Position numbers and translations under genes: made by a program
Notes under the pieces: generated by a model
Databases searched by the model: none
What the model was told of the DNA's origin: nothing
Seen by the model: only the letters and a program-made list of their open reading frames with translations
Part shown: one piece after another, positions 10,868-47,137 of the stretch
Position numbering within the stretch: the stretch's first letter is position 1
Layout: each line of letters begins with the position of its first letter
Assembly: GCA_945957605.1 (NCBI GenBank)
Contig: CAMFLR010000006.1
Location: forward strand, 372,001-436,000
Source of the DNA: an uncultured Isosphaeraceae bacterium
GTDB lineage: Bacteria > Planctomycetota > Planctomycetia > Isosphaerales > Isosphaeraceae
DNA: 64,000 nucleotides
Direction: 5' to 3'

Positions 10868-11002
10868 GAGCCCCACAAACCTTTCCGCCGGGACGGGCGT
10901 GAAGGTTCCGGCTTCGGGGCTCCGGCGCGTGGTGCATCGGCAGACGTTCTGCGAAGCGGCCCGCCCGGATGCTTGTGACCGAAGCATCGGAACAGAACCT
11001 CG

Positions 11003-11190
11003 ACGGGCAGGTCTTCTGGCTTTCGGCTCATAGCGGACCCCGGGGTCGCCTTCCCGCCAATAACGGCAGTGGCTTGATTGTGCCCGGGGGCCTCACCGAT
11101 CACAGCGGCGGCCCCGCGACGGATTCGCACCGTCTTCCCTATTCTCCCCCGCACCACGTTCGGGGCGGAGGCACCTGTCGAGAGTGACGA
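11003..11190 (-). promoter_or_regulatory. Cobalamin (B12) riboswitch
   Basis: Read on the minus strand, the leader holds the conserved cobalamin-aptamer blocks in order: an upstream GACAGGTGCCTCCGCC, AATAGGGAAGACGGTGCGAA followed by TCCGTCGCGGGGCC (the GGGAA..GGTG..AATCC..GC core), GCCGCTGTGAT, AGCCACTGCC, GGGAAGGCG and finally GAGCCGAAAGCCAGAAGACC with TGCC. It ends about 135 bases before the ATG of the DUF1559 gene. An expression platform is not resolved. These aptamers normally lower expression of B12 synthesis or uptake genes when adenosyl- or methylcobalamin is plentiful. Confidence 0.93.
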
Positions 11191-11479
11191 TTAGACCGCC
11201 CAAGACGACACGATGTCAAGCCGACCATTCTTGGCGCGTCAGGTGGTGCGTTCAATTCACCGCCAATTCCAACTCATTGACCCGCAGCCAGAAAGCCTGC
11301 GACAAAAAGGGCACGTCTGGCCTGTGCGCAATTCGCGCATTCTGATATGGTCCCCGAACTTACACAGCCGCGCATCCACATACGTCACGTCAAAAGAAGC
11401 TGCGATTGAGTGCAGCTCAAAAGAAGCCGAGACCGCTCATTTGTCTCGGTCGCCATGCGAATTGAGGAGATCGCGCAGC

Positions 11480-13391: not shown

Positions 13392-14499
13392 ATAGACTGT
13401 AGTGCGGCGATTTGTTGGCGAGTGATGTCGAGCAGCCTGTTGAAATATTCGATTTTGGGCCGCTATCGCTCTCAAAATGTCAACGACTTCATCAATGCGT
13501 CAAATGTCGCGAAACGCCGTGCTTCTTGCGATATGAGCGGGCTATCGAACGCTTTTCTTGCCAATCGACCTGACCAAAATCGAGATTGACTAGCCACGAA
13601 GTGTCGACCTTGGCGTTGCGGCTGGGGGACGTATTGCCTGACGACGTACGCGTCAGTATCTGCCGTTTGAAGCACAATTCAACACCACTCCCCTATCGGC
13701 GAAGTAGCCACCAGTGTGTTCGATGTTACCTAGGTCGCATTGGTGGGGTACCACCAGTGGCACCCGATGGTCTGATTTCGGGCACCGCGCCGAAACCCAT
13801 CACGAGCCTTTGTTAAAAGCCACACACCCAGCGTTAGACGAAATTGGGACAACTCGTTGCCTCGGTTGCGAAGCGGCGAGAGGGCATCGTAATTTGTTGT
13901 ACTTCGCCCTCTTATGGCTGCGCCACCTGGACAACAAGTTGTCCAGGCCACCCAACCGGATCTGTCGCCATATCCCAACTGCGTAGTTCCTCTTCTTCTG
14001 TCGGGCGGATGGCCCAAACGATCTGCGTCTCCAAGCAGCCGCTTCGTGATGGAACAAAGGTACGTTTCGGCAATGAATATCGGGCAACAGAATCTCTCGC
14101 TCGAATCGCACAATCACATAATAATTCCAAGCCAGCCAGAAACACGCGCACAAGAAACAGTCAATCGCGCAACCGGCAGAACTCGATTGATCCTCGCATG
14201 CGGCGCATCTGGAATGTTCGAATCATTTTACATAACTTCAGATCTTTCAAAGATTCTCCGGCATCCTCCATTTCATGTGCTAAGCTTCGCGTGCCCTCAA
14301 TACGTCTTCGCGCAATCGTGATTTGGCGTGGTCTGCAGCTCATGCCGGATATGACGGAAGCGCCAGGCGTCGAGGTGCGAACTCATCAGATCTTGAGCAC
14401 GCCTGTTAATTGGTCCGCGTAGTTACTCTCAATTCGCATCACTCGATCGACACCCGGAGTTTAAGGACAGCATTCGCCATAGGGAAGGGGCGTTGAACG
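13392..14499. other. Gene-poor stretch with repeats
   Basis: No convincing coding sequence is seen over roughly 1.1 kb. Short ORFs on both strands change frame, and several cross the palindromic repeat centred near 13.9 kb. A fragment near 13.73 kb (GGTGGGGTACCACCAGTGGC) resembles part of another dispersed repeat. Composition is more AT-rich than surrounding genes. The stretch could be decayed mobile or accessory DNA, but no transposase remnant could be established. Confidence 0.5.
13845..13953. repeat. Palindromic intergenic repeat, dispersed family
   Basis: It contains CGGTTGCGAAGCGGCGAGAG on the left and, on the right, ATGGCTGCGCCACCTGGAC followed by AACAAGTTGTCCAGGCCACC. The right arm is a near-perfect hairpin and is almost identical to the right arm of the copy near 24.2 kb. 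The left arm is degenerate (GGGACAACTCGTTGCCTCGG). Confidence 0.75.
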
Positions 14500-17169
14500 A
14501 TGCGCACTTCGGGGAAGCGGAACGCGAAGCCGGATACCAAGCGCCGGGTCACTCCGCTCGAAATGCTCGAGCAGCGCGAACTGCTCACAGCCACGACCGA
14601 GACCTTCGTTGGTCCCAACCTGAACCCGCTACTCAAGCGGTCTAATCCAGGTCCGGCCATCATCAACAAGATGACCGTCGCCCTGCAGACCCAAATCACC
14701 AACGGCCCCCTCGCCGACCTCAAAGCCGGCAAAGTCGATTCCACCGGCTTCGTCACCGAGGTCCAGAGCCTCGCCGCGAGCTATGTCAATTATTCCGACT
14801 CCAAGCTGGCGAAGCTCCCCAGCGTCAAGGAAGTCGTGAATCTCCAAAGCGCCCGCGCTGTCGCCGATCAAATTGCGATCGAGCAGTCAAACAGCGTCGG
14901 ACTCGTCAGCGATGCCACTTACATCTCCGTGGCAACCACGGCGGTGAACTCGCTTACGAAAGGCCCGATCCTCCCCAATAACACGCCGGTCTCCAACCTG
15001 CTGAAGCGGACGAATCAGTTCATCAAGCAGGTGGATACGATCGTCGCAGCGTTCGGCAATGGCGCTCTCAAGCTTTCCGACGCAGCCAACTCGATCATCG
15101 CCGACGCTGAAGCCTATCGCACCGACATGCACTCGGCGATCCTCGTCGGCCATCCGATTCAGTCGAACGACATCGACGGCGACGTCATTCGCCTCGAAAA
15201 CGCCGCGGCCAACATTGTTGCGACCAACAACGCCAAGCTCTCCGCGGGCCAGCTCATCGGCTCGGTGAACACTTTCTACAACGGCGTGATCGATATCTTC
15301 GGCACATTCGGCCCGCGTGGACCAGTCGCCAAGGCGCTCCGCGAACACGGCTGGCCGCAAACGCCGACCATCCTCGCCGATGACACCACGCTCACCGACG
15401 TATCCGCGACCGGCTCGGCCGGCGGGCTGCTCGTGCTGAGCGCCACGCTCACCGAAAACACGAGCACCAACCCCGCCCCCAACCAACTGGTCGTCTTCAC
15501 GGTCAACGGCGATTTCGCCGGCACCGCGATCACCGACAACGACGGCCTCGCGACGATCGCAATCGCCAACACGCTCGCCTCGGGTAGCACCACGGGCGGC
15601 GTGGTCGCCAGCTTCGCGGGTGATGCCTATCATCGTCCGACCGCAGCCTCGGGCGACGTTAGCGTCACGAAGGCGACTTCGGCCCTCAGCGCTGTCTCCG
15701 GAAGCGCACAGTTCGGCGGCACGGCCACACTCACGGCCACACTCGCCAACACCACAACGAACACCCCCCTCTCCGGCCAGACCATCAACTTCACGCTCGA
15801 CGGCACTGCAGTCGGTTCGGCCGTCACCAATGCCAGCGGCGTCGCCACGCTCTCGGGTGTTGCTTCGTCGAAGCCGGTTGGCACCGATACGGGCGGCGTC
15901 GTCGCCAGCTACGCGGGCAGCTCAGCGCAGCTTCCGGCCACGAACGTTTCGGGTAACCTCGTCACCACGACGGCCTCCACAACGTTCGGCACGATCAACG
16001 GCACGGCGGTCTTCGGCGGCCTGGCGACGTTGCACGCCACTCTGATCTCGGCAGTGACGAACCAGCCGATTCCGAATGCGACGGTCTCGTTCACGCTCGA
16101 CGGTATCGCCGTGGGAACGGGTGTCACTGACGCGAACGGCATCGCAACCGCAACCGCGACCACGACCGCAAACGCCGGCACCGACGCGGGCGGCATCGTC
16201 GTCAGCTTCGCGGGCAACTCGAACTTCGCGGCTTCGGGTAGTGCGACCGGCTCGCTCGTCGTGTCGCAGGCCGGCACCAGCCTCGGATCAGTGAGCGGCA
16301 CCGGCAACTTCGGCGGCCCCGCAACCCTCACCGCAACGCTGACCTCGGCCGCCACGAATTCCGGCGTCTCGGGCCAGGTGCTCAACTTCACGCTCAACGG
16401 CGTGGCCGTCGGCAGCGCGACGACGAACTCAAGTGGCGTGGCCACGTTCACCGGCGTGTCGAACACGCTCCCCGCTGGCACAACGACCGGAATCGTGGGT
16501 GTCACGTTCCCCGGCACAACGAACTTCCTTGCAGCGCCAGCAGCGACGGGCAACATCACGATTTCGCAGGCCGCCACCACGCTTGGCTCGGTGGGAGGCA
16601 CCGCTGACTTCGGCGGAACGGCCACGCTCCACGCGACGCTCACCTCGCTGGTGACGAACCTGCCAGTCGCCGGTGAAACGGTGGTCTTCTCGCTGAACGG
16701 CGTGCAAGTTGGCACAGCCGTGACGAACGCGAGCGGCGTGGCGACGCTTAGCGGCGTGGCCAACGCGAACAACGCAGGCACCGATACCGGCGGGGTTACC
16801 GCGAACTACACCGGCACCTCGAACTACACCGCCGCAACGAAGGCGCTTGGCGACCTTGTCGTGAACAAGGCGGGCACATCCTTCACAGCCGTCTCGGGCA
16901 CCGCGCCTCTGGGCGGTCCCGCCACGCTGCTCGCCACGTTGCTCTCGTCGGTCACCGGTTTGGGCATCTCGGGCGAAACGGTGAACTTCCTGCTCGATGG
17001 AGTCGCCGTCGGCTCGGCCGTCACCGACACGAACGGTGTGGCAACACTCGACAACGTGCCCACAAGCGATGGCACGGGCACGCACCAGGGCGCAGTGGTG
17101 TCGACCTACAACGGGTCGAGCAACTACCTCGACGCGACCAACGGTAGCGGCGACCTGGTTGTGAGCTAA
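14500..17169 (+). CDS. Ig-like repeat surface protein with planctomycete N-terminal motif
   Basis: 889 residues. The N-terminus is basic and carries TPLEMLEQRELLTATTETF, a version of the LE.R.LL(S/T)A motif that heads many large planctomycete surface or exported proteins in place of a plain signal peptide. Residues ~40-285 form an Ala-rich helical region. From ~290 to the end come six bacterial Ig-like repeats of about 95 residues, each with a G(G/P).ATL.ATL block, a V.F.L(D/N)G..VG.A.T...G.AT block and a Y.G..N/F...S.G...V closing strand. AAGGGG precedes the ATG. A strong terminator follows directly, so it is a single-gene unit. Adhesion or cell-surface structure is the likely role. Confidence 0.85.
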   Translation: MRTSGKRNAKPDTKRRVTPLEMLEQRELLTATTETFVGPNLNPLLKRSNPGPAIINKMTVALQTQITNGPLADLKAGKVDSTGFVTEVQSLAASYVNYSDSKLAKLPSVKEVVNLQSARAVADQIAIEQSNSVGLVSDATYISVATTAVNSLTKGPILPNNTPVSNLLKRTNQFIKQVDTIVAAFGNGALKLSDAANSIIADAEAYRTDMHSAILVGHPIQSNDIDGDVIRLENAAANIVATNNAKLSAGQLIGSVNTFYNGVIDIFGTFGPRGPVAKALREHGWPQTPTILADDTTLTDVSATGSAGGLLVLSATLTENTSTNPAPNQLVVFTVNGDFAGTAITDNDGLATIAIANTLASGSTTGGVVASFAGDAYHRPTAASGDVSVTKATSALSAVSGSAQFGGTATLTATLANTTTNTPLSGQTINFTLDGTAVGSAVTNASGVATLSGVASSKPVGTDTGGVVASYAGSSAQLPATNVSGNLVTTTASTTFGTINGTAVFGGLATLHATLISAVTNQPIPNATVSFTLDGIAVGTGVTDANGIATATATTTANAGTDAGGIVVSFAGNSNFAASGSATGSLVVSQAGTSLGSVSGTGNFGGPATLTATLTSAATNSGVSGQVLNFTLNGVAVGSATTNSSGVATFTGVSNTLPAGTTTGIVGVTFPGTTNFLAAPAATGNITISQAATTLGSVGGTADFGGTATLHATLTSLVTNLPVAGETVVFSLNGVQVGTAVTNASGVATLSGVANANNAGTDTGGVTANYTGTSNYTAATKALGDLVVNKAGTSFTAVSGTAPLGGPATLLATLLSSVTGLGISGETVNFLLDGVAVGSAVTDTNGVATLDNVPTSDGTGTHQGAVVSTYNGSSNYLDATNGSGDLVVS

Positions 17170-17384: not shown

Positions 17385-18191
17385 ATGGAAGGCGACGAAC
17401 AACGACGATCGTTGTTGCAAAAGCTCGTGCGCAAGGTGGGAACTGTAGCGGGCGCCGCGGCGGCACTGCTCGCGTCGAACGCGGGTACGGTCGATGCGAA
17501 CCAACCGCATTCTTCGCCTGCGCAGCCAAGAGCTGTGACACTTTCCAACCTGCACGACGGAACCGGACGCAGGCGCGACTTGCCACCGCCCCTGGTTCTC
17601 AAGTCGAGCATGGCCAACGCGAAAGCAATGTTCGCGGCGGGGCATCGATCGCATTCATCGCATAGCTCGCACAGTTCGCACCGGTCACACGTCTCGGGCG
17701 CAAGCCATTCGTCTCACTTTTCCAGCTCCATTGCACCAAGCACGCCATCGGCGGATTCGACCGCACCAGCGCCTTCGGCTCGTACGCGATCGAGGTCATT
17801 GACGCGCACTCCGAAAGCAACGCCATCGCTGCCGCAAGCCGAGGACGCGACTCCCGTCACCGATTCCAAGGTGCCTCCGACCACTCCCGGCCTTCCGAAT
17901 GCGCCTCGGACATCGGTGAAGCCAGCACCAAAGCTGCCAAATTTCTCGGCAGGCGCGACAGCAAATGGCGAAGAATCGGTCGATCCCTCGACTCGCTATC
18001 GCATCATCACGATGCAGGCCGATAAGGGCTTTCCCGTCGTCTTCATCAAGGATTTGCTTACCAATGAATCAAAGCAAATCCGCGTGGGTGAAACCATTGG
18101 CGACGCCACGCTGATGAGTATCTCGCTGCCAACTCGTACGATTCGACTCAAGCCCAAGGGTGGCGAAGAATTCGCGCTGCGTCAGCAATAA
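17385..18191 (+). CDS. hxsA: His-Xaa-Ser repeat precursor protein HxsA
   Basis: 268 residues from an ATG with GAGG six bases upstream. A hydrophobic N-terminal stretch (VGTVAGAAAALLASNAGTVD) suggests export. Residues 87-113 are built from exact triplets HRS HSS HSS HSS HRS HVS GAS HSS HFS, eight of nine beginning with His and ending in Ser. This is the defining repeat of HxsA, proposed target of the paired radical SAM enzymes HxsB and HxsC. A Pro/Thr/Ser-rich linker follows. The last ~70 residues (from YRIITMQADKGFPVVFIKDL to the end, with IRVGETIGDATLMSI) resemble the GspC periplasmic homology domain; that comparison is inference. A possible promoter (TTGAGA, 16 bases, ATAATC) lies 40-65 bases upstream. 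Confidence 0.88.
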   Translation: MEGDEQRRSLLQKLVRKVGTVAGAAAALLASNAGTVDANQPHSSPAQPRAVTLSNLHDGTGRRRDLPPPLVLKSSMANAKAMFAAGHRSHSSHSSHSSHRSHVSGASHSSHFSSSIAPSTPSADSTAPAPSARTRSRSLTRTPKATPSLPQAEDATPVTDSKVPPTTPGLPNAPRTSVKPAPKLPNFSAGATANGEESVDPSTRYRIITMQADKGFPVVFIKDLLTNESKQIRVGETIGDATLMSISLPTRTIRLKPKGGEEFALRQQ

Positions 18192-18254
18192 TTTGAGTCC
18201 TGGTAGCGAGTTCGTCGCCGTTTTGACGAGCAATGGCCCACGAACGGGAAAAGC

Positions 18255-18548
18255 ATGATCGAGGTAATGCTCACACTCAGCACGACGATCTATCGTCTCG
18301 CTGCCATCAAAAAGGCGGCGTATCGCCTGGGCAATCGTTGTGCGGCGCTGATCGAACTCACCACCGACGGCAATGTCGCGTTGAAGCTCATTTCCAAACG
18401 CATCGGCGATTCGACTCAGAGTCTCGAAGCCGATTTTCTCACCGAGTTGCTCGACCAGGAGCTGCGCGAAACGATTGCCGAGGAAACCGCGCCGATCAGG
18501 AACTTGCTGCTGGCACAGGCGTTTTCGGGACTCGCCGCAAACGAGTGA
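18255..18548 (+). CDS. hxsD: His-Xaa-Ser system protein HxsD
   Basis: 97 residues, GGGAAAAGC before the ATG. Size, position between the repeat protein and the two radical SAM genes, and the segment LLDQELRETIAEETAPIR match HxsD, whose family is known for an LLNDYxLRE-type motif. The first 60 residues read as a small alpha/beta domain (TIYRLAAIKKAAYRLGNRCA, ALIELTTDGNVALKLIS), reminiscent of small peptide-recognition domains in RiPP pathways. Its biochemical role is unknown; leader or substrate binding is a plausible inference. The operon gap to hxsB is 27 bases. Confidence 0.85.
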   Translation: MIEVMLTLSTTIYRLAAIKKAAYRLGNRCAALIELTTDGNVALKLISKRIGDSTQSLEADFLTELLDQELRETIAEETAPIRNLLLAQAFSGLAANE

Positions 18549-18575
18549 CGTATTCTCACTTCAATTGGCCGCGCC

Positions 18576-20054
18576 ATGTCTTCATTACCCATCATCAAGG
18601 GCCAGCGTTTTCATAACCTCGATTATTTTCGTCGGAGAAGCGGCGAGAATTATCGGCTCTTGCCGATGCGATTCATCGCACTTGACGACACACGCTACGT
18701 CGTCACGAACTTCGCCGGCGAACTGATCGTGCTGCTTCGCGAAACGATGCAACAGCTCGTTCGGCACGAACTCGATACGGCGTCACCAATCTATGAAGAA
18801 CTGCTCGCGCGGCACTTCGTGCTCGACGATGACTCTGACGTAGCACTTGGCCTACTCGCGATAAAATATCGCACGAAGCAATCATTGCTGGCGAACTTCA
18901 CGGCGCTGTTCATGTTCGTTGTGAGTTTGCGTTGCGATCACAGTTGCCCTTATTGCCAGGTCTCGCGGCAATCGGCCGATCGCCACGCTTACGACATGAA
19001 ACCCGAAGTCGTCGCCCGTGCCATCGACTTCATGTTCCGCAGCCCTTCGCCGACGATCAAGGTCGAGTTCCAGGGCGGCGAATCCCTGCTGAATTTCGGG
19101 CTCATCGAGCAAATCGTCGCCGAAGTCAACGCGCGCAATGTCGTCGAAAATCGTGAGATTCAATTTGTCATCGCGACCAATCTGGCGCCTTTGACCGATG
19201 AGATTCTCACCTTCTGCCGCGAGCATCACATCTTTCTATCCACCAGCCTCGACGGTCCGAAATCGCTCCACAACGCGAACCGACCGAGACCTGGCGGAGA
19301 CAGCCACGAACTGGTCGAGCACGGCATTCAACGTGCCCGCGAAGTGCTCGGCCATGACCAGATCTCCGCGCTGATGACAACAACGGCCGAAAGCCTGTCT
19401 CAGCCGCGAGCGATCGTCGACGAATATGTAAGACTCGGTTTCACCAGCATTTTTCTCCGCCCGCTTAGCCCTTACGGCTTTGCGGTAAAAACCGGCGCAG
19501 TGGGGCGATACACGGTCGACCAGTGGCTCGACTTCTACCGAGAAACGCTCGGCTACATCATCGAGCTCAACACGCAGGGCGTGCCAATTCGCGAGGAATA
19601 CACAGCGCTGCTATTGCGCAAGATGCTAACGCCCTACCCTACTGGCTACGTCGATCTCCAATCGCCGGCCGGAATTGGAATCGCCGGAATCGTCTTCAAT
19701 TATGATGGCGACATCTACGCCTCGGACGAGGCTCGCATGCTGGCCGAAACGGGCGATCGACGGTTCCGGCTGGGCAATCTCATCAACGACTCATACGAAG
19801 ATGTGATTCTTTCCGACACCCTGCTCGACACGCTTTCGCAAACGATGACCGAAGGCGTGCCGATGTGTGTCGATTGCGGCTTTCAGCCGTATTGCGGCAG
19901 CGATCCGGTCTATCATCATGCAACGCAAAACGACGCCGTCGGCTTCAAACCACTGAGCGATTTCTGTCGTCGCAACATGGAAGTGATGCGTCAGATCATT
20001 CGCTTGCTCGAAGACGACCCGCAATCCGCCGAAATCCTTAACACCTGGCTCTGA
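18576..20054 (+). CDS. hxsB: Radical SAM maturase HxsB
   Basis: 492 residues. The radical SAM cluster motif is CDHSCPYC, with Cys120, Cys124 and Cys127 in a CX3CX2C arrangement, preceded by an N-terminal ~110-residue domain (MRFIALDDTRYVVTNFAGE...) typical of HxsB. The usual later motifs are visible: EFQGGESLLNF (GGE), IATNLAPL and STSLDGP. A Cys-rich C-terminal region (MCVDCGFQPYCGSDP, then a later DFC) looks like a SPASM or twitch auxiliary-cluster domain, common in enzymes acting on peptides. With HxsC it forms the paired radical SAM set of the Hxs system. The reaction product is not known. Confidence 0.92.
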   Translation: MSSLPIIKGQRFHNLDYFRRRSGENYRLLPMRFIALDDTRYVVTNFAGELIVLLRETMQQLVRHELDTASPIYEELLARHFVLDDDSDVALGLLAIKYRTKQSLLANFTALFMFVVSLRCDHSCPYCQVSRQSADRHAYDMKPEVVARAIDFMFRSPSPTIKVEFQGGESLLNFGLIEQIVAEVNARNVVENREIQFVIATNLAPLTDEILTFCREHHIFLSTSLDGPKSLHNANRPRPGGDSHELVEHGIQRAREVLGHDQISALMTTTAESLSQPRAIVDEYVRLGFTSIFLRPLSPYGFAVKTGAVGRYTVDQWLDFYRETLGYIIELNTQGVPIREEYTALLLRKMLTPYPTGYVDLQSPAGIGIAGIVFNYDGDIYASDEARMLAETGDRRFRLGNLINDSYEDVILSDTLLDTLSQTMTEGVPMCVDCGFQPYCGSDPVYHHATQNDAVGFKPLSDFCRRNMEVMRQIIRLLEDDPQSAEILNTWL

Positions 20055-20071
20055 AATCGGGAGAGCGATTC

Positions 20072-21229
20072 GTGATCAAGCTGCACGCGCGACTCTCCCA
20101 TCGCACCGACGCCGAGCCGTTCGTCGCGCGGATCGTGCGTAACCTGCAGAACACGGTTGATCGCAATCGCGAGATTCTTCTGACCAATCAAACCGAAACG
20201 ATGGTCCCCGGATTTCGCGGCTACTTGATGGTGTCGCATACAGATGATTCCTCGACCAGCGACTCACCAATTTGGCCGCTTCCTGCAGAACTTGACCATC
20301 TTGCCGAAGGCGACGTGGTGCGCATCAGCCCGCGATCGGGCGAAATCTGGGTGATGTATCGCAGGGCGTCCACGTTCAATTCAATGCTCGTCACCGAGCG
20401 CTGCAATAGCTATTGCGTGATGTGTTCACAGCCGCCCAAGGTAGCCAACGACGACTTCCTGCGTGCCGCTTATCTCGAAGCAATTCCGCTCATGTCGCCC
20501 GAAACACGCGAGTTGGGAATCACAGGCGGCGAACCCGCGCTTCTTGGCAACGGCCTGGTCGAATTATTGAACGCCTGCAAAACTCATCTGCCTCAAACGG
20601 CGATTCATATCCTCACGAACGGTCGATTGTTTCGCGACATCGAGTTTTGTCGCGCACTCTCGAGCATCGAGCATCCCGACCTCATGCTCGGAATTCCGCT
20701 TTACTCCGACATTTCCTACCGGCATGACCACGTTGTTCAGGCCGATGGCGCGTTCGACGAGACGATTCGCGGCCTGTTGAATCTCGCGCGGTTTCAAGTA
20801 CCCATCGAGATTCGCGTCGTGCTCCATCGCGATACAGTCGACCGCCTGCCGCAACTTGCTCGCTTCATCACGCGAAACTTGCCCTTCGCGTCGCACGTCG
20901 CACTCATGGGCCTGGAAATGATGGGATTTGCACGCGCCAATCTCCCTGCGCTCTGGATCGATCCTGCCGACTATCAGCCACAACTTCGTGCAGCCGTCGA
21001 GCACTTCGATCGCCATGGAATGAGCGTTTCGATCTATAACCATCAGCTTTGCGTGCTCGATCACGACCTCTGGCCCTTCGCCCGCAAAAGCATTTCCGAC
21101 TGGAAGAACGAGTATCTTCCCGAGTGCGATCGCTGTGCCGTGCGCGCGGATTGCGGTGGATTCTTCGCATCGTCATCGCTGCGCCGTTCTGACCACATTC
21201 AGGCCATAGAGGCAGCGGCCTCAATCTGA
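20072..21229 (+). CDS. hxsC: Radical SAM maturase HxsC
   Basis: 385 residues from a GTG with GGGAGAG upstream, 17 bases after hxsB. The cluster motif is CNSYCVMC (Cys111, Cys115, Cys118), followed by GITGGEPALLG and ILTNGRLF. The N-terminal 100 residues are a separate domain. The C-terminal CDRCAVRADCGGFFAS carries three more cysteines, which may bind an auxiliary cluster. The Hxs system pairs two dissimilar radical SAM proteins, and this gene fits the HxsC half. Inference: the two enzymes act on the HxS triplets of the upstream hxsA product. Confidence 0.92.
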   Translation: MIKLHARLSHRTDAEPFVARIVRNLQNTVDRNREILLTNQTETMVPGFRGYLMVSHTDDSSTSDSPIWPLPAELDHLAEGDVVRISPRSGEIWVMYRRASTFNSMLVTERCNSYCVMCSQPPKVANDDFLRAAYLEAIPLMSPETRELGITGGEPALLGNGLVELLNACKTHLPQTAIHILTNGRLFRDIEFCRALSSIEHPDLMLGIPLYSDISYRHDHVVQADGAFDETIRGLLNLARFQVPIEIRVVLHRDTVDRLPQLARFITRNLPFASHVALMGLEMMGFARANLPALWIDPADYQPQLRAAVEHFDRHGMSVSIYNHQLCVLDHDLWPFARKSISDWKNEYLPECDRCAVRADCGGFFASSSLRRSDHIQAIEAAASI

Positions 21230-21273
21230 GTAATGTTCTCCTGTTCTGATGTTCATTTTTTTCGTGAGGAGAA

Positions 21274-21483
21274 ATGTCGATGTGGAATTCCCTGCTCATC
21301 TCGGCGCTTTACGGCACGCTCGGCGTCTTGCTCTCCGCGCTCGGGTACAAGCTGTTCGACCTGATCGAAACCAAGGTCGATTTCGCCGAAGAACTGAAAA
21401 AAGGAAATATGGCCGTCGCCATCGTCGTCGCTGGCTTCCTGCTTGGCATTTGCTTCATCATCGGCCGGACGGTTGGCGGTTGA
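21274..21483 (+). CDS. DUF350-type small membrane protein at the end of the Hxs operon
   Basis: 69 residues, strong GAGGAG directly before the ATG. Two TM helices flank a charged loop (FDLIETKVDFAEELKKGNMA), then AIVVAGFLLGICFIIGRTV. The L.D..(E)...F..EL..GN.A.A pattern is characteristic of DUF350 membrane proteins. The gene begins 44 bases after hxsC on the same strand, so it is probably part of the same transcript. A role as membrane partner of the modified HxsA protein is a guess from position only. Confidence 0.8.
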   Translation: MSMWNSLLISALYGTLGVLLSALGYKLFDLIETKVDFAEELKKGNMAVAIVVAGFLLGICFIIGRTVGG

Positions 21484-21582: not shown

Positions 21583-21945
21583 ATGTCGGATGCGTCGGAA
21601 AATGATCGCAATTCCATCGCCCGCCTGCGCGGCCTTGCGCTCGTTGGCGTGGCCGCGATCGTCGCGTTCGGCCTCTGGGTTGGATCAGATCGGCCAACCC
21701 TGTCCGGCACACCCGAGCCCTACGCCTTGAGGGTCGATCCCACGACCGCGCCAATCGGTGTGCTCGAAGCCTTGCCGCGGATTGGTCCCACGATGGCGAG
21801 TCGCATTGTCGACGCACGCGACCAGGGGCGGTTTCGCGACCTTGATGATTTCGATGCGCGTGTGAAGGGCGTTGGGCCGGCGACGCGAACCGGACTGACC
21901 CCTTACCTTGTCTTTCCTGAAGTGCCGAACGAACCCGCACGGTAA
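21583..21945 (+). CDS. Helix-hairpin-helix (ComEA-like) DNA-binding protein
   Basis: 120 residues, GGGAG seven bases before the ATG. One N-terminal TM helix (LRGLALVGVAAIVAFGLWVG) is followed by a ComEA-type double HhH: LRVDPTTAPIGVLEALPRIGPTMASRIVDAR, then FRDLDDFDARVKGVGPATRTGL. Such proteins hold double-stranded DNA at the membrane during uptake, and short versions with unknown roles are common. It ends 9 bases before uvrB and may share its transcript. Confidence 0.85.
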   Translation: MSDASENDRNSIARLRGLALVGVAAIVAFGLWVGSDRPTLSGTPEPYALRVDPTTAPIGVLEALPRIGPTMASRIVDARDQGRFRDLDDFDARVKGVGPATRTGLTPYLVFPEVPNEPAR

Positions 21946-24084: not shown

Positions 24085-24202
24085 GGGGTGGCCGGGACAA
24101 CTTGTTGTCCCGGTCGCGAAGCGACAAGAGGCTAACGCAACAGTTCTCGCTGTTTCCTCTTGTGGCTGCGCCACCTGGACAACAAGTTGTCCAGGTCACC
24201 CC
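24085..24202. repeat. Palindromic intergenic repeat, best-preserved family copy
   Basis: Left arm: GGGGTGGCCGGGACAACTTG plus TTGTCCCGG, a hairpin around the self-complementary ACAACTTGTTGT. Right arm: GCGCCACCTGGACAACAAG with TTGTCCAGGTCACCCC. Between the arms, GCGAAGCGACAAGAGG and CCTCTTGTGGCTGCGCC pair with each other. The whole element can fold into a cruciform of about 118 bases. It fills most of the space between uvrB and nadC. Confidence 0.85.
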
Positions 24203-41332: not shown

Positions 41333-41367
41333 GGGGTGGCCGAGACAACTTGTTGTCCGGGCCACCC
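41333..41367. repeat. Short hairpin, dispersed ACAACTTGTTGT family
   Basis: GGGGTGGCCGAGACAACTTG with TTGTCCGGGCCACCC forms a single imperfect hairpin around the palindrome ACAACTTGTTGT. This is one arm of the larger two-hairpin element, here standing alone between the phosphorylase and nupC genes. Confidence 0.75.
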
Positions 41368-46596: not shown

Positions 46597-47137
46597 GGGA
46601 AAGAATCTCGATGTGTGATTGTCGAGTAACGAAGTGACGTCAATCATTGGATCTGAAAAACAACGAGCGCGCAGTCAGTGGAACAGCGCCCGCAGCGTGA
46701 TGCTAGCGCAAAAAGCCACCAGAACCACAGATTGACCGAAATTCATTTGCTGTCAAACAAGGAGGACGCGATTGAGACTGGGCTCAGAAATGCAGCGAAG
46801 CGCCGGGGTTTAGGATCCAGGCAACTTGTAGCGTCCAAGGCCTGGATTCAGGTGGCCTGAACAACTTGTTGTCCCAACCGTTCCATTCGCCGGTTTGCCA
46901 GATGCGAATTGCGTAATTCCAAAAATGTTCAACATAAGCCATTTTCTTGCTGACTGATTTCGCGGTTTTGACAACCTCTCCCGCAACTCAGCAAGCCTAG
47001 TGCGCCCTCGGGGACAAATGGGATTCGCAGGATGAAATTCATCGTTCGCAAAAGAAACACCGGGGCTTCCTTTGCTGCGTTCAGTCCAGCCACCGGCCAC
47101 CCAATTCCTCGTTCATTTCGTCGTCTGAACGGTGTGC
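46597..47137. other. Intergenic region with degenerate repeat
   Basis: About 540 bases without a credible gene. A degenerate copy of the dispersed element is seen around 46815-46876 (GGTGGCCTGAACAACTTGTT then GTCCC), and GGCCACCC at 47095 may be its distant right end. The upstream promoter of the SnoaL-like gene must lie at the left side. Nothing else recognised. Confidence 0.5.

Follow-up and report, generated by a model that had tools for sequence, protein, structure and literature searches.

A planctomycete form of the Hxs radical SAM operon with a predicted HR-type domain in its substrate protein and a proposed fifth gene

We found that positions 17,385 to 21,229 of the window (the whole 64,000-nucleotide stretch of Isosphaeraceae DNA that was analyzed) hold a genuine Hxs operon in a planctomycete form. 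Its substrate protein, HxsA, is confidently predicted to end in a domain that folds like the HR domain of GspC and PilP, and we propose a DUF350 membrane protein gene as a fifth member of the module in planctomycetes. Hxs is a known family that was proposed from genomes and is chemically uncharacterized. The system (HxsA/B/C/D; TIGR03976–TIGR03979) is credited to Haft and Basu by PMC9062424, and the open-licence papers that we searched contained no published Hxs product or function. Although the Hxs system is already known, its planctomycete form with the HR-type domain and DUF350 is undescribed as far as these literature searches reach. The source genome has a size of 8.84 Mb and belongs to the Isosphaeraceae, the family of Paludisphaera soli. 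The HxsA of G015, a genome of the same family, is identical to that of P. soli.

Family assignment and layout of the operon

Family calls were made with the cut-offs of the NCBIfam/NCBI curated models, applied to whole-protein bit scores. HxsB, HxsC, and HxsD all scored above the cut-offs of their own families (Table 1). The preliminary description of this DNA had named a closer match of its two radical SAM proteins to other families as the outcome that would speak against it; we found the opposite, with HxsB at 619 bits versus 102 bits for the next-best family and HxsC at 400.1 versus 42 bits. HxsA, on the other hand, fell below all four curated cut-offs, including those for HxsA (TIGR03979; 28.1 bits versus 121.65), HxsA2 (NF038296; 29.7 versus 48), HxsA3 (NF038309; 26.4 versus 65), and HxsA4 (NF038313; 23.5 versus 55), and the same was true for the five other planctomycete HxsA proteins. 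Thus, the system is Hxs, with a substrate of a type that the curated models miss. The description of the locus as a complete Hxs operon therefore stands for the system, while the precursor lies outside the curated models.

The remaining observations made from the sequence at first sight were borne out. The four ORFs are located on the + strand and are separated by gaps of 63, 27, and 17 bases in the order hxsA-hxsD-hxsB-hxsC, the small HxsD-like protein is indeed HxsD, and both radical SAM proteins carry the CX3CX2C motif together with C-terminal cysteine sets at the residue level. The end coordinate given at that time, 21,483, tacitly took in the additional DUF350 gene, which is probably part of the module; both this partner and the C-terminal HR-type domain of HxsA had been overlooked. 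Promoter and terminator scans of the locus gave results at chance level.

Table 1. Features of the planctomycete hxs locus, in positions of the window, with the basis of each assignment
Feature	Position	Strand	Basis
HxsA, 268 aa, HxS-tract substrate protein, planctomycete type	17385..18191	+	ORF, GAGG ahead of ATG; weak, below-cut-off matches to HxsA, A2, A3, and A4 models; orthologues immediately 5' of hxsD in 5 other planctomycete loci
Signal-like N-terminal region of HxsA: basic start, Ala-rich hydrophobic stretch	17385..17498	+	Conserved in 6 planctomycete HxsA; hydropathy maxima 1.3–1.8
Leader-like motif LVLK, 17 residues ahead of the first His of the tract	17592..17603	+	Motif count across HxsA
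HxS tract, residues 87–113, 8/9 triplets	17643..17723	+	Shuffle test; sole HxS tract locus found in the genome
C-terminal domain of HxsA, predicted fold of GspC/PilP HR domain	17970..18188	+	AlphaFold2 pLDDT 90.3; structural matches
HxsD, 97 aa, predicted beta-alpha-beta-beta-long alpha	18255..18548	+	TIGR03976, 59.2 bits, cut-off 50; model pLDDT 89.5
HxsB, 492 aa, radical SAM protein with SPASM-like C terminus	18576..20054	+	TIGR03978, 619 bits, cut-off 370; nearest solved structures CteB, AnSME
HxsB Ser383-Asp384, replacing AnSME Cys276 (AuxI ligand) and Asp277	19722..19727	+	Profile alignment to 4k37; Asp384 invariant in 23 HxsB
HxsC, 385 aa, second radical SAM protein, GTG start	20072..21229	+	TIGR03977, 400 bits, cut-off 267.9
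DUF350 membrane protein, 67 aa, one unit, two hydrophobic segments	21280..21483	+	PF03994, 48.3 bits, cut-off 26 (Pfam gathering score)

The tract and the C-terminal domain of HxsA

The tract of HxsA (HRS HSS HSS HSS HRS HVS GAS HSS HFS) consists of nine consecutive triplets, eight of the form His-Xaa-Ser, as had been noted from the sequence. When the whole protein was shuffled 20,000 times, nine consecutive triplets never held more than four HxS, and no shuffle restricted to the tract reached seven. In all six planctomycete HxsA proteins, a PL[VI]L[KRQ] motif lies between the signal-like start and the tract, and a variable Pro/Ser linker connects the tract to the C-terminal domain. Across several phyla, the broader motif [LF][VI][LMI][KRQTEA] preceded the tract in 17 of 21 HxsA proteins compared to 0.21 expected by shuffling, a contrast that is optimistic because the same 21 proteins served both to define the motif and to count it. 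This leader-like motif is positioned at −14 to −18 relative to the first His.

The Xaa of the triplets is mostly Ser or Arg. We observed a single case of adjacent triplets with Arg as Xaa versus 10.5 expected, and 17 of 23 tracts had Tyr or Val as the Xaa of their last triplet; both contrasts are inflated by kinship among the sequences. The scarcity of adjacent Arg and the preference for Tyr or Val at the end suggest that the triplets are under position-dependent constraint. Cysteine was absent from 19 of the 22 HxsA proteins counted and from every tract. Each planctomycete hxs genome encodes one HxS-tract substrate, and no further one was found in the source genome. Other pattern hits in related genomes corresponded to CATGCCACC-type repeats, which are located away from hxsA and are not readable as His/Ser tracts. 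In HxsA2 proteins, the tract is found at the very C terminus.

The C-terminal domain of HxsA, folded from three sequences with AlphaFold2, was modeled as six strands. The best structural match of the model was the HR domain of GspC (3oss_C; Z 9.1, rmsd 2.3, 63 of 65 residues), and it also matched PilP (3jc8 with Z 8.2 and a further PilP with 7.7). All top 11 rows were GspC, PilP, LspC, PulC, or a Dot/Icm component, while the next, unrelated row had a Z of 3.9. Foldseek placed PilP first, albeit at an E value of 0.03, and the corresponding region of one HxsA orthologue (L032) matched the NCBIfam model GspC_delta (E 0.0055). A sequence-only PDB search with the domain returned no match and a Pfam search nothing meaningful; the HR assignment thus draws on the predicted fold and one weak GspC_delta match. 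The full-length GspC equivalog did not match the HxsA of the window and gave 16.5 bits versus a cut-off of 150 for the L032 orthologue. A leave-one-out test recovered the HR-type domain in five of the six planctomycete HxsA proteins, and the most distant one (G658) scored 6.2 bits as compared to 5.0 for the negative control.

HR domains are composed of six strands in two sheets (PMC3169554) and dock on secretins at the N0 domain (PMC3169554, PMC9239104). Secretins are encoded in all six hxs-bearing planctomycete genomes but are not specific to hxs carriers. Across the planctomycete loci, no type II secretion gene was conserved adjoining hxs. In HxsA from Hymenobacter, Adhaeribacter, Aeromonas, and Klebsiella, a PG_binding_1 domain occupies the slot held by the HR-type domain in planctomycetes. 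This domain content suggests a common theme, in which the tract would be brought to the envelope with anchors that can be swapped. The C terminus of Calothrix HxsA showed a weak TftA match that was under the cut-off (39.9 versus 500).

The DUF350 gene and the distribution of hxs

The orthologues of the DUF350 protein begin with MW, which makes a start at 21,280 more likely than one at 21,274. A DUF350 gene encoding about 67 to 71 residues with two hydrophobic segments was present immediately 3' of hxsC in all six planctomycete loci, the five other proteins being 56 to 82% identical to that of the window. Such a gene was absent within 900 bases 3' of hxsC at every non-planctomycete locus examined, and plasmid records yielded no DUF350 match. 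Among 59 relatives, a close orthologue (at least 77% identity) was found only in the three hxs-bearing genomes, and distant homologues (at most 50%) in four hxs-negative ones; the probability of this co-occurrence by chance would be 1 in 32,509 were the genomes independent, which they are not. These data are indicative of DUF350 being inherited together with hxs. The block A-D-B-C-DUF350 remained intact across three families despite flanks that otherwise differed in every gene; the six loci share no genes beyond the five, and DUF350 was conserved to about the same degree as HxsB. Elsewhere, DUF350 (YjfL) proteins are members of envelope-stress operons (PMC11237479). Among open-licence papers, we found none linking DUF350 or a secretin-docking domain to Hxs.

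Of the 45 genomes in the family, 3 carry HxsB; samples of 397 genomes from the class and 392 from the phylum gave 6 and 2 carriers, respectively. HxsB is also found on 396 plasmid records (316 from Klebsiella), in one Leptospira phage genome, and on 12 IMG/VR contigs. In a quick tree, planctomycete HxsB formed a single clade (SH-aLRT 90), within which HxsB from Schlesneria (Planctomycetaceae) clustered with that of the Isosphaeraceae. This placement, together with the patchy distribution, suggests that hxs has been transferred.

Enzymes, proposed mechanism, and relation to known systems

The radical SAM motif of HxsB is formed by C120/C124/C127 and its C-terminal set by C431/C434/C440/C464, while HxsC carries C111/C115/C118 and one extra set, C327/C352/C355/C361. 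Of the proteins with solved structures, CteB (5wgg; E 2e-26) and AnSME (4k37; E 8e-24) are most closely related to HxsB; AnSME oxidizes Ser or Cys. In the comparison with 4k37, C317, C320, C326, and C348, the AuxII ligands of AnSME, correspond to C431, C434, C440, and C464 of HxsB. Conversely, HxsB has no equivalents of C255, C261, C276, and C330, the AuxI ligands. The catalytic Asp277 of AnSME is matched by the invariant Asp384; SPASM proteins may often have an Asp here, which makes this residue a weak pointer to Ser chemistry. Three-residue cyclophane maturases modify triplets of the form Omega-X-X, which in the case of FxsB is Phe-Xaa-Ser. HxsB scored below the cut-offs of FxsB (45.4 versus 370), GrrM/OscB (53.9 versus 310), and YhhB (68.5 versus 445). 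After its own family, it scored nearest to thioether-forming families; we set thioether chemistry aside, as the tracts are free of Cys.

The predicted topology of HxsD seems to differ from the PqqD-like RRE winged helix with its three strands and three helices, and the model has no clear structural relative. The best of its listed structural matches were ferredoxin/KH-like (Z at most 8), which is a common arrangement, and no RRE was among those listed. A Pfam search of the HxsB N terminus at E values up to 10 also gave no RRE match.

The architecture of HxsB, related to Ser-acting enzymes, together with a tract that repeats Ser at constant spacing to His, points to chemistry at the Ser beta-carbon. 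We propose a five-gene planctomycete Hxs system, in which HxsB, HxsC, and HxsD would modify the HxsA tract starting at this carbon, and HxsA would be exported and held in the envelope; we give this proposal about even credence. We infer the modification and its chemistry, and likewise the sequence of steps, the route of export, and the partner given below. HxsA would be synthesized with its signal-like N terminus, the leader-like phi-V-L-K motif, the HxS tract, the Pro/Ser-rich linker, and the predicted HR-type domain. HxsB and HxsC, together with HxsD, would then place radical-based modifications on the HxS triplets while the protein is still in the cytoplasm. A start at the Ser beta-carbon seems most likely, because the tract is Cys-free, which argues against thioethers, and His and Ser are paired i/i+2 in each triplet. 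Our best guess for the product is either an oxidized Ser or a three-residue cyclophane with a carbon-carbon crosslink between His and Ser; as the scores of HxsB place it outside both reference families, the sequence leaves both products in play. Modified HxsA would subsequently be exported and retained in the envelope via its C-terminal domain, in planctomycetes by docking on a secretin-type partner or the DUF350 membrane protein, and in other lineages by peptidoglycan.

The tract might instead be a metal-binding, His-rich region that is only mildly modified (for example Ser to formylglycine, hydroxylation, or epimerization) and serves as an envelope metal store or sensor, a reading that we consider possible but on balance unlikely. 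It would agree with the spacing of His at three-residue intervals in a protein whose N terminus is signal-like, with the relation of HxsB to CteB and to the Ser/Cys-oxidizing AnSME, whose Asp277 position is kept, and with the lack of conservation beyond the five genes, which gives no hint that a released peptide has its own protease or exporter. However, the strict i/i+2 His-Ser pairs, the alternation of Arg and Ser, and the conserved last Xaa seem more than metal binding needs, and the loci have no metal-transport gene in common. We regard as very improbable that Hxs is a classical RiPP system, whose tract is excised and released as a small bioactive peptide with the C-terminal domains as mere carriers. 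The constrained spacing of the leader-like motif and the HxsA2 tracts, which sit at the extreme C terminus where a core peptide would be, fit such a system, but the long linker and folded domain that follow the tract in planctomycete and peptidoglycan-binding HxsA make a released peptide less likely, and the planctomycete loci share neither a peptidase nor an ABC exporter.

A further alternative concerns the planctomycete additions, which would be incidental if DUF350 were a linked passenger in one clade and the HR-type domain a generic beta-sandwich without secretin binding. The single HxsB clade does mean that the six loci represent one lineage and not six separate gains. Nevertheless, we find this alternative quite unlikely, given the five-gene block kept in three families amid otherwise different flanks, the HxsB-like conservation of DUF350, and top structural matches that are all HR-type or a secretion-system component of the HR fold.

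The five-gene proposal can be extended to an envelope-decoration system, in which the two radical SAM enzymes would crosslink His to Ser in the tract through a new imidazole-carbon bond motif, interchangeable anchors (peptidoglycan or HR/secretin) would fix it permanently to trans-envelope structures, and DUF350 would be a dedicated membrane partner in planctomycetes; in this full form, it is speculative and unlikely. If the tract were crosslinked at His, it would represent a new class of post-translational bond in a system that is widespread on plasmids, mostly of Klebsiella, in a Leptospira phage, and in several phyla. The anchor swapping, the leader-like motif, the Cys-free tract, and the co-inherited membrane protein allow specific tests of chemistry, location, and partner.

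Compared to known systems, the locus resembles Hxs in that HxsB, HxsC, and HxsD exceed the curated cut-offs and are adjacent on one strand with an HxS-tract protein alongside; it differs in an HxsA that lies below the four HxsA models, the predicted HR-type domain, and the DUF350 fifth gene. HxsA proteins of the PG_binding_1 type likewise have a signal-like start, in most cases the leader-like motif, an HxS tract, a linker, and a C-terminal envelope-type domain; there, PG_binding_1 replaces the HR-type domain and DUF350 is not alongside. The predicted domain shares the six-stranded fold of the HR domains of GspC, PilP, and GspB from type II secretion and type IV pili, but in HxsA it is joined to an HxS tract without the remainder of GspC or PilP, and its secretin docking is putative. 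Among the enzymes, HxsB shares the AuxII-type Cys set and the Asp277 position with AnSME and CteB, its nearest solved relatives, whereas it lacks the AuxI ligands, has an HxS-tract substrate, and scores far under the cut-offs of both families. Finally, the cyclophane maturases FxsB, GrrM/OscB, and YhhB are also SPASM radical SAM proteins, and their Omega-X-X geometry recalls HxS; in contrast to these, HxsB lies far below their cut-offs, and Hxs employs two radical SAM enzymes together with HxsD.

Genes and repeats around the hxs module

The gene encoding an 889–amino acid protein with Ig-like domains lies directly 5' of hxsA, and a gene for a short protein with a membrane segment begins 100 bases 3' of the hxs module. 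Comparison of the flanks revealed that the former is not kept at the other hxs loci and that the latter is not kept next to hxs at other loci. Separately, a cobalamin riboswitch was found in the window, as was a dispersed near-perfect palindrome, GGACAACTTGTTGTCC, which gave 11 strand-matches at three or fewer mismatches versus 0.41 expected. Some of its copies are also alike in their neighboring sequence. The palindrome is an intergenic repeat element.

Coordinates of the features in the window and at the compared loci
Feature	Location	Strand	Evidence
889-aa protein bearing LEMLEQRELL as an N-terminal motif, plus six Ig-like domains of the Big_3_5 family	window 14500-17169	+	Pfam
Short protein, membrane segment and helix-hairpin-helix domain	window 21583-21942	+	exceeds Pfam cut-offs of HHH_3 and T2SSK
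Cobalamin riboswitch	window 10989-11193	-	Rfam RF00174, 109.9 bits
Palindrome GGACAACTTGTTGTCC	window 13929-13944, 24095-24110, 24177-24192, 41343-41358, 46859-46874		
Thermonuclease-family gene, Methylobacter	L053 9639-10355		
Thermonuclease-family gene, Nostoc	L052 10042-10578		
HxsA, Calothrix	L051 9827-10555		

Hxs loci in other bacteria

A thermonuclease-family gene is located close 3' of hxsC in Methylobacter, and one is found in the hxs vicinity, on the opposite strand, in Nostoc. The C-terminal region of Calothrix HxsA weakly resembles the hormogonium morphoprotein TftA (39.9 bits, under the cut-off of 500); judged from this resemblance, it is possibly another type of envelope anchor. 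One distant planctomycete genome carries two divergent HxsB genes (L049 and L050; 38 and 35% identity), and no HxS-tract open reading frame was visible on the small contigs bearing them.

Hxs on plasmids and phage-like elements

Hxs is common on Klebsiella plasmids, being present in L060 and 315 further records of such plasmids. In L060, the one such plasmid examined, hxsC is followed by hxsA, whose product contains a peptidoglycan-binding domain. Moreover, all of hxsA-D are present in a Leptospira phage genome (record KF114877), and 12 IMG/VR contigs carry HxsA/HxsB. Thus, Hxs also travels on phage-like elements.
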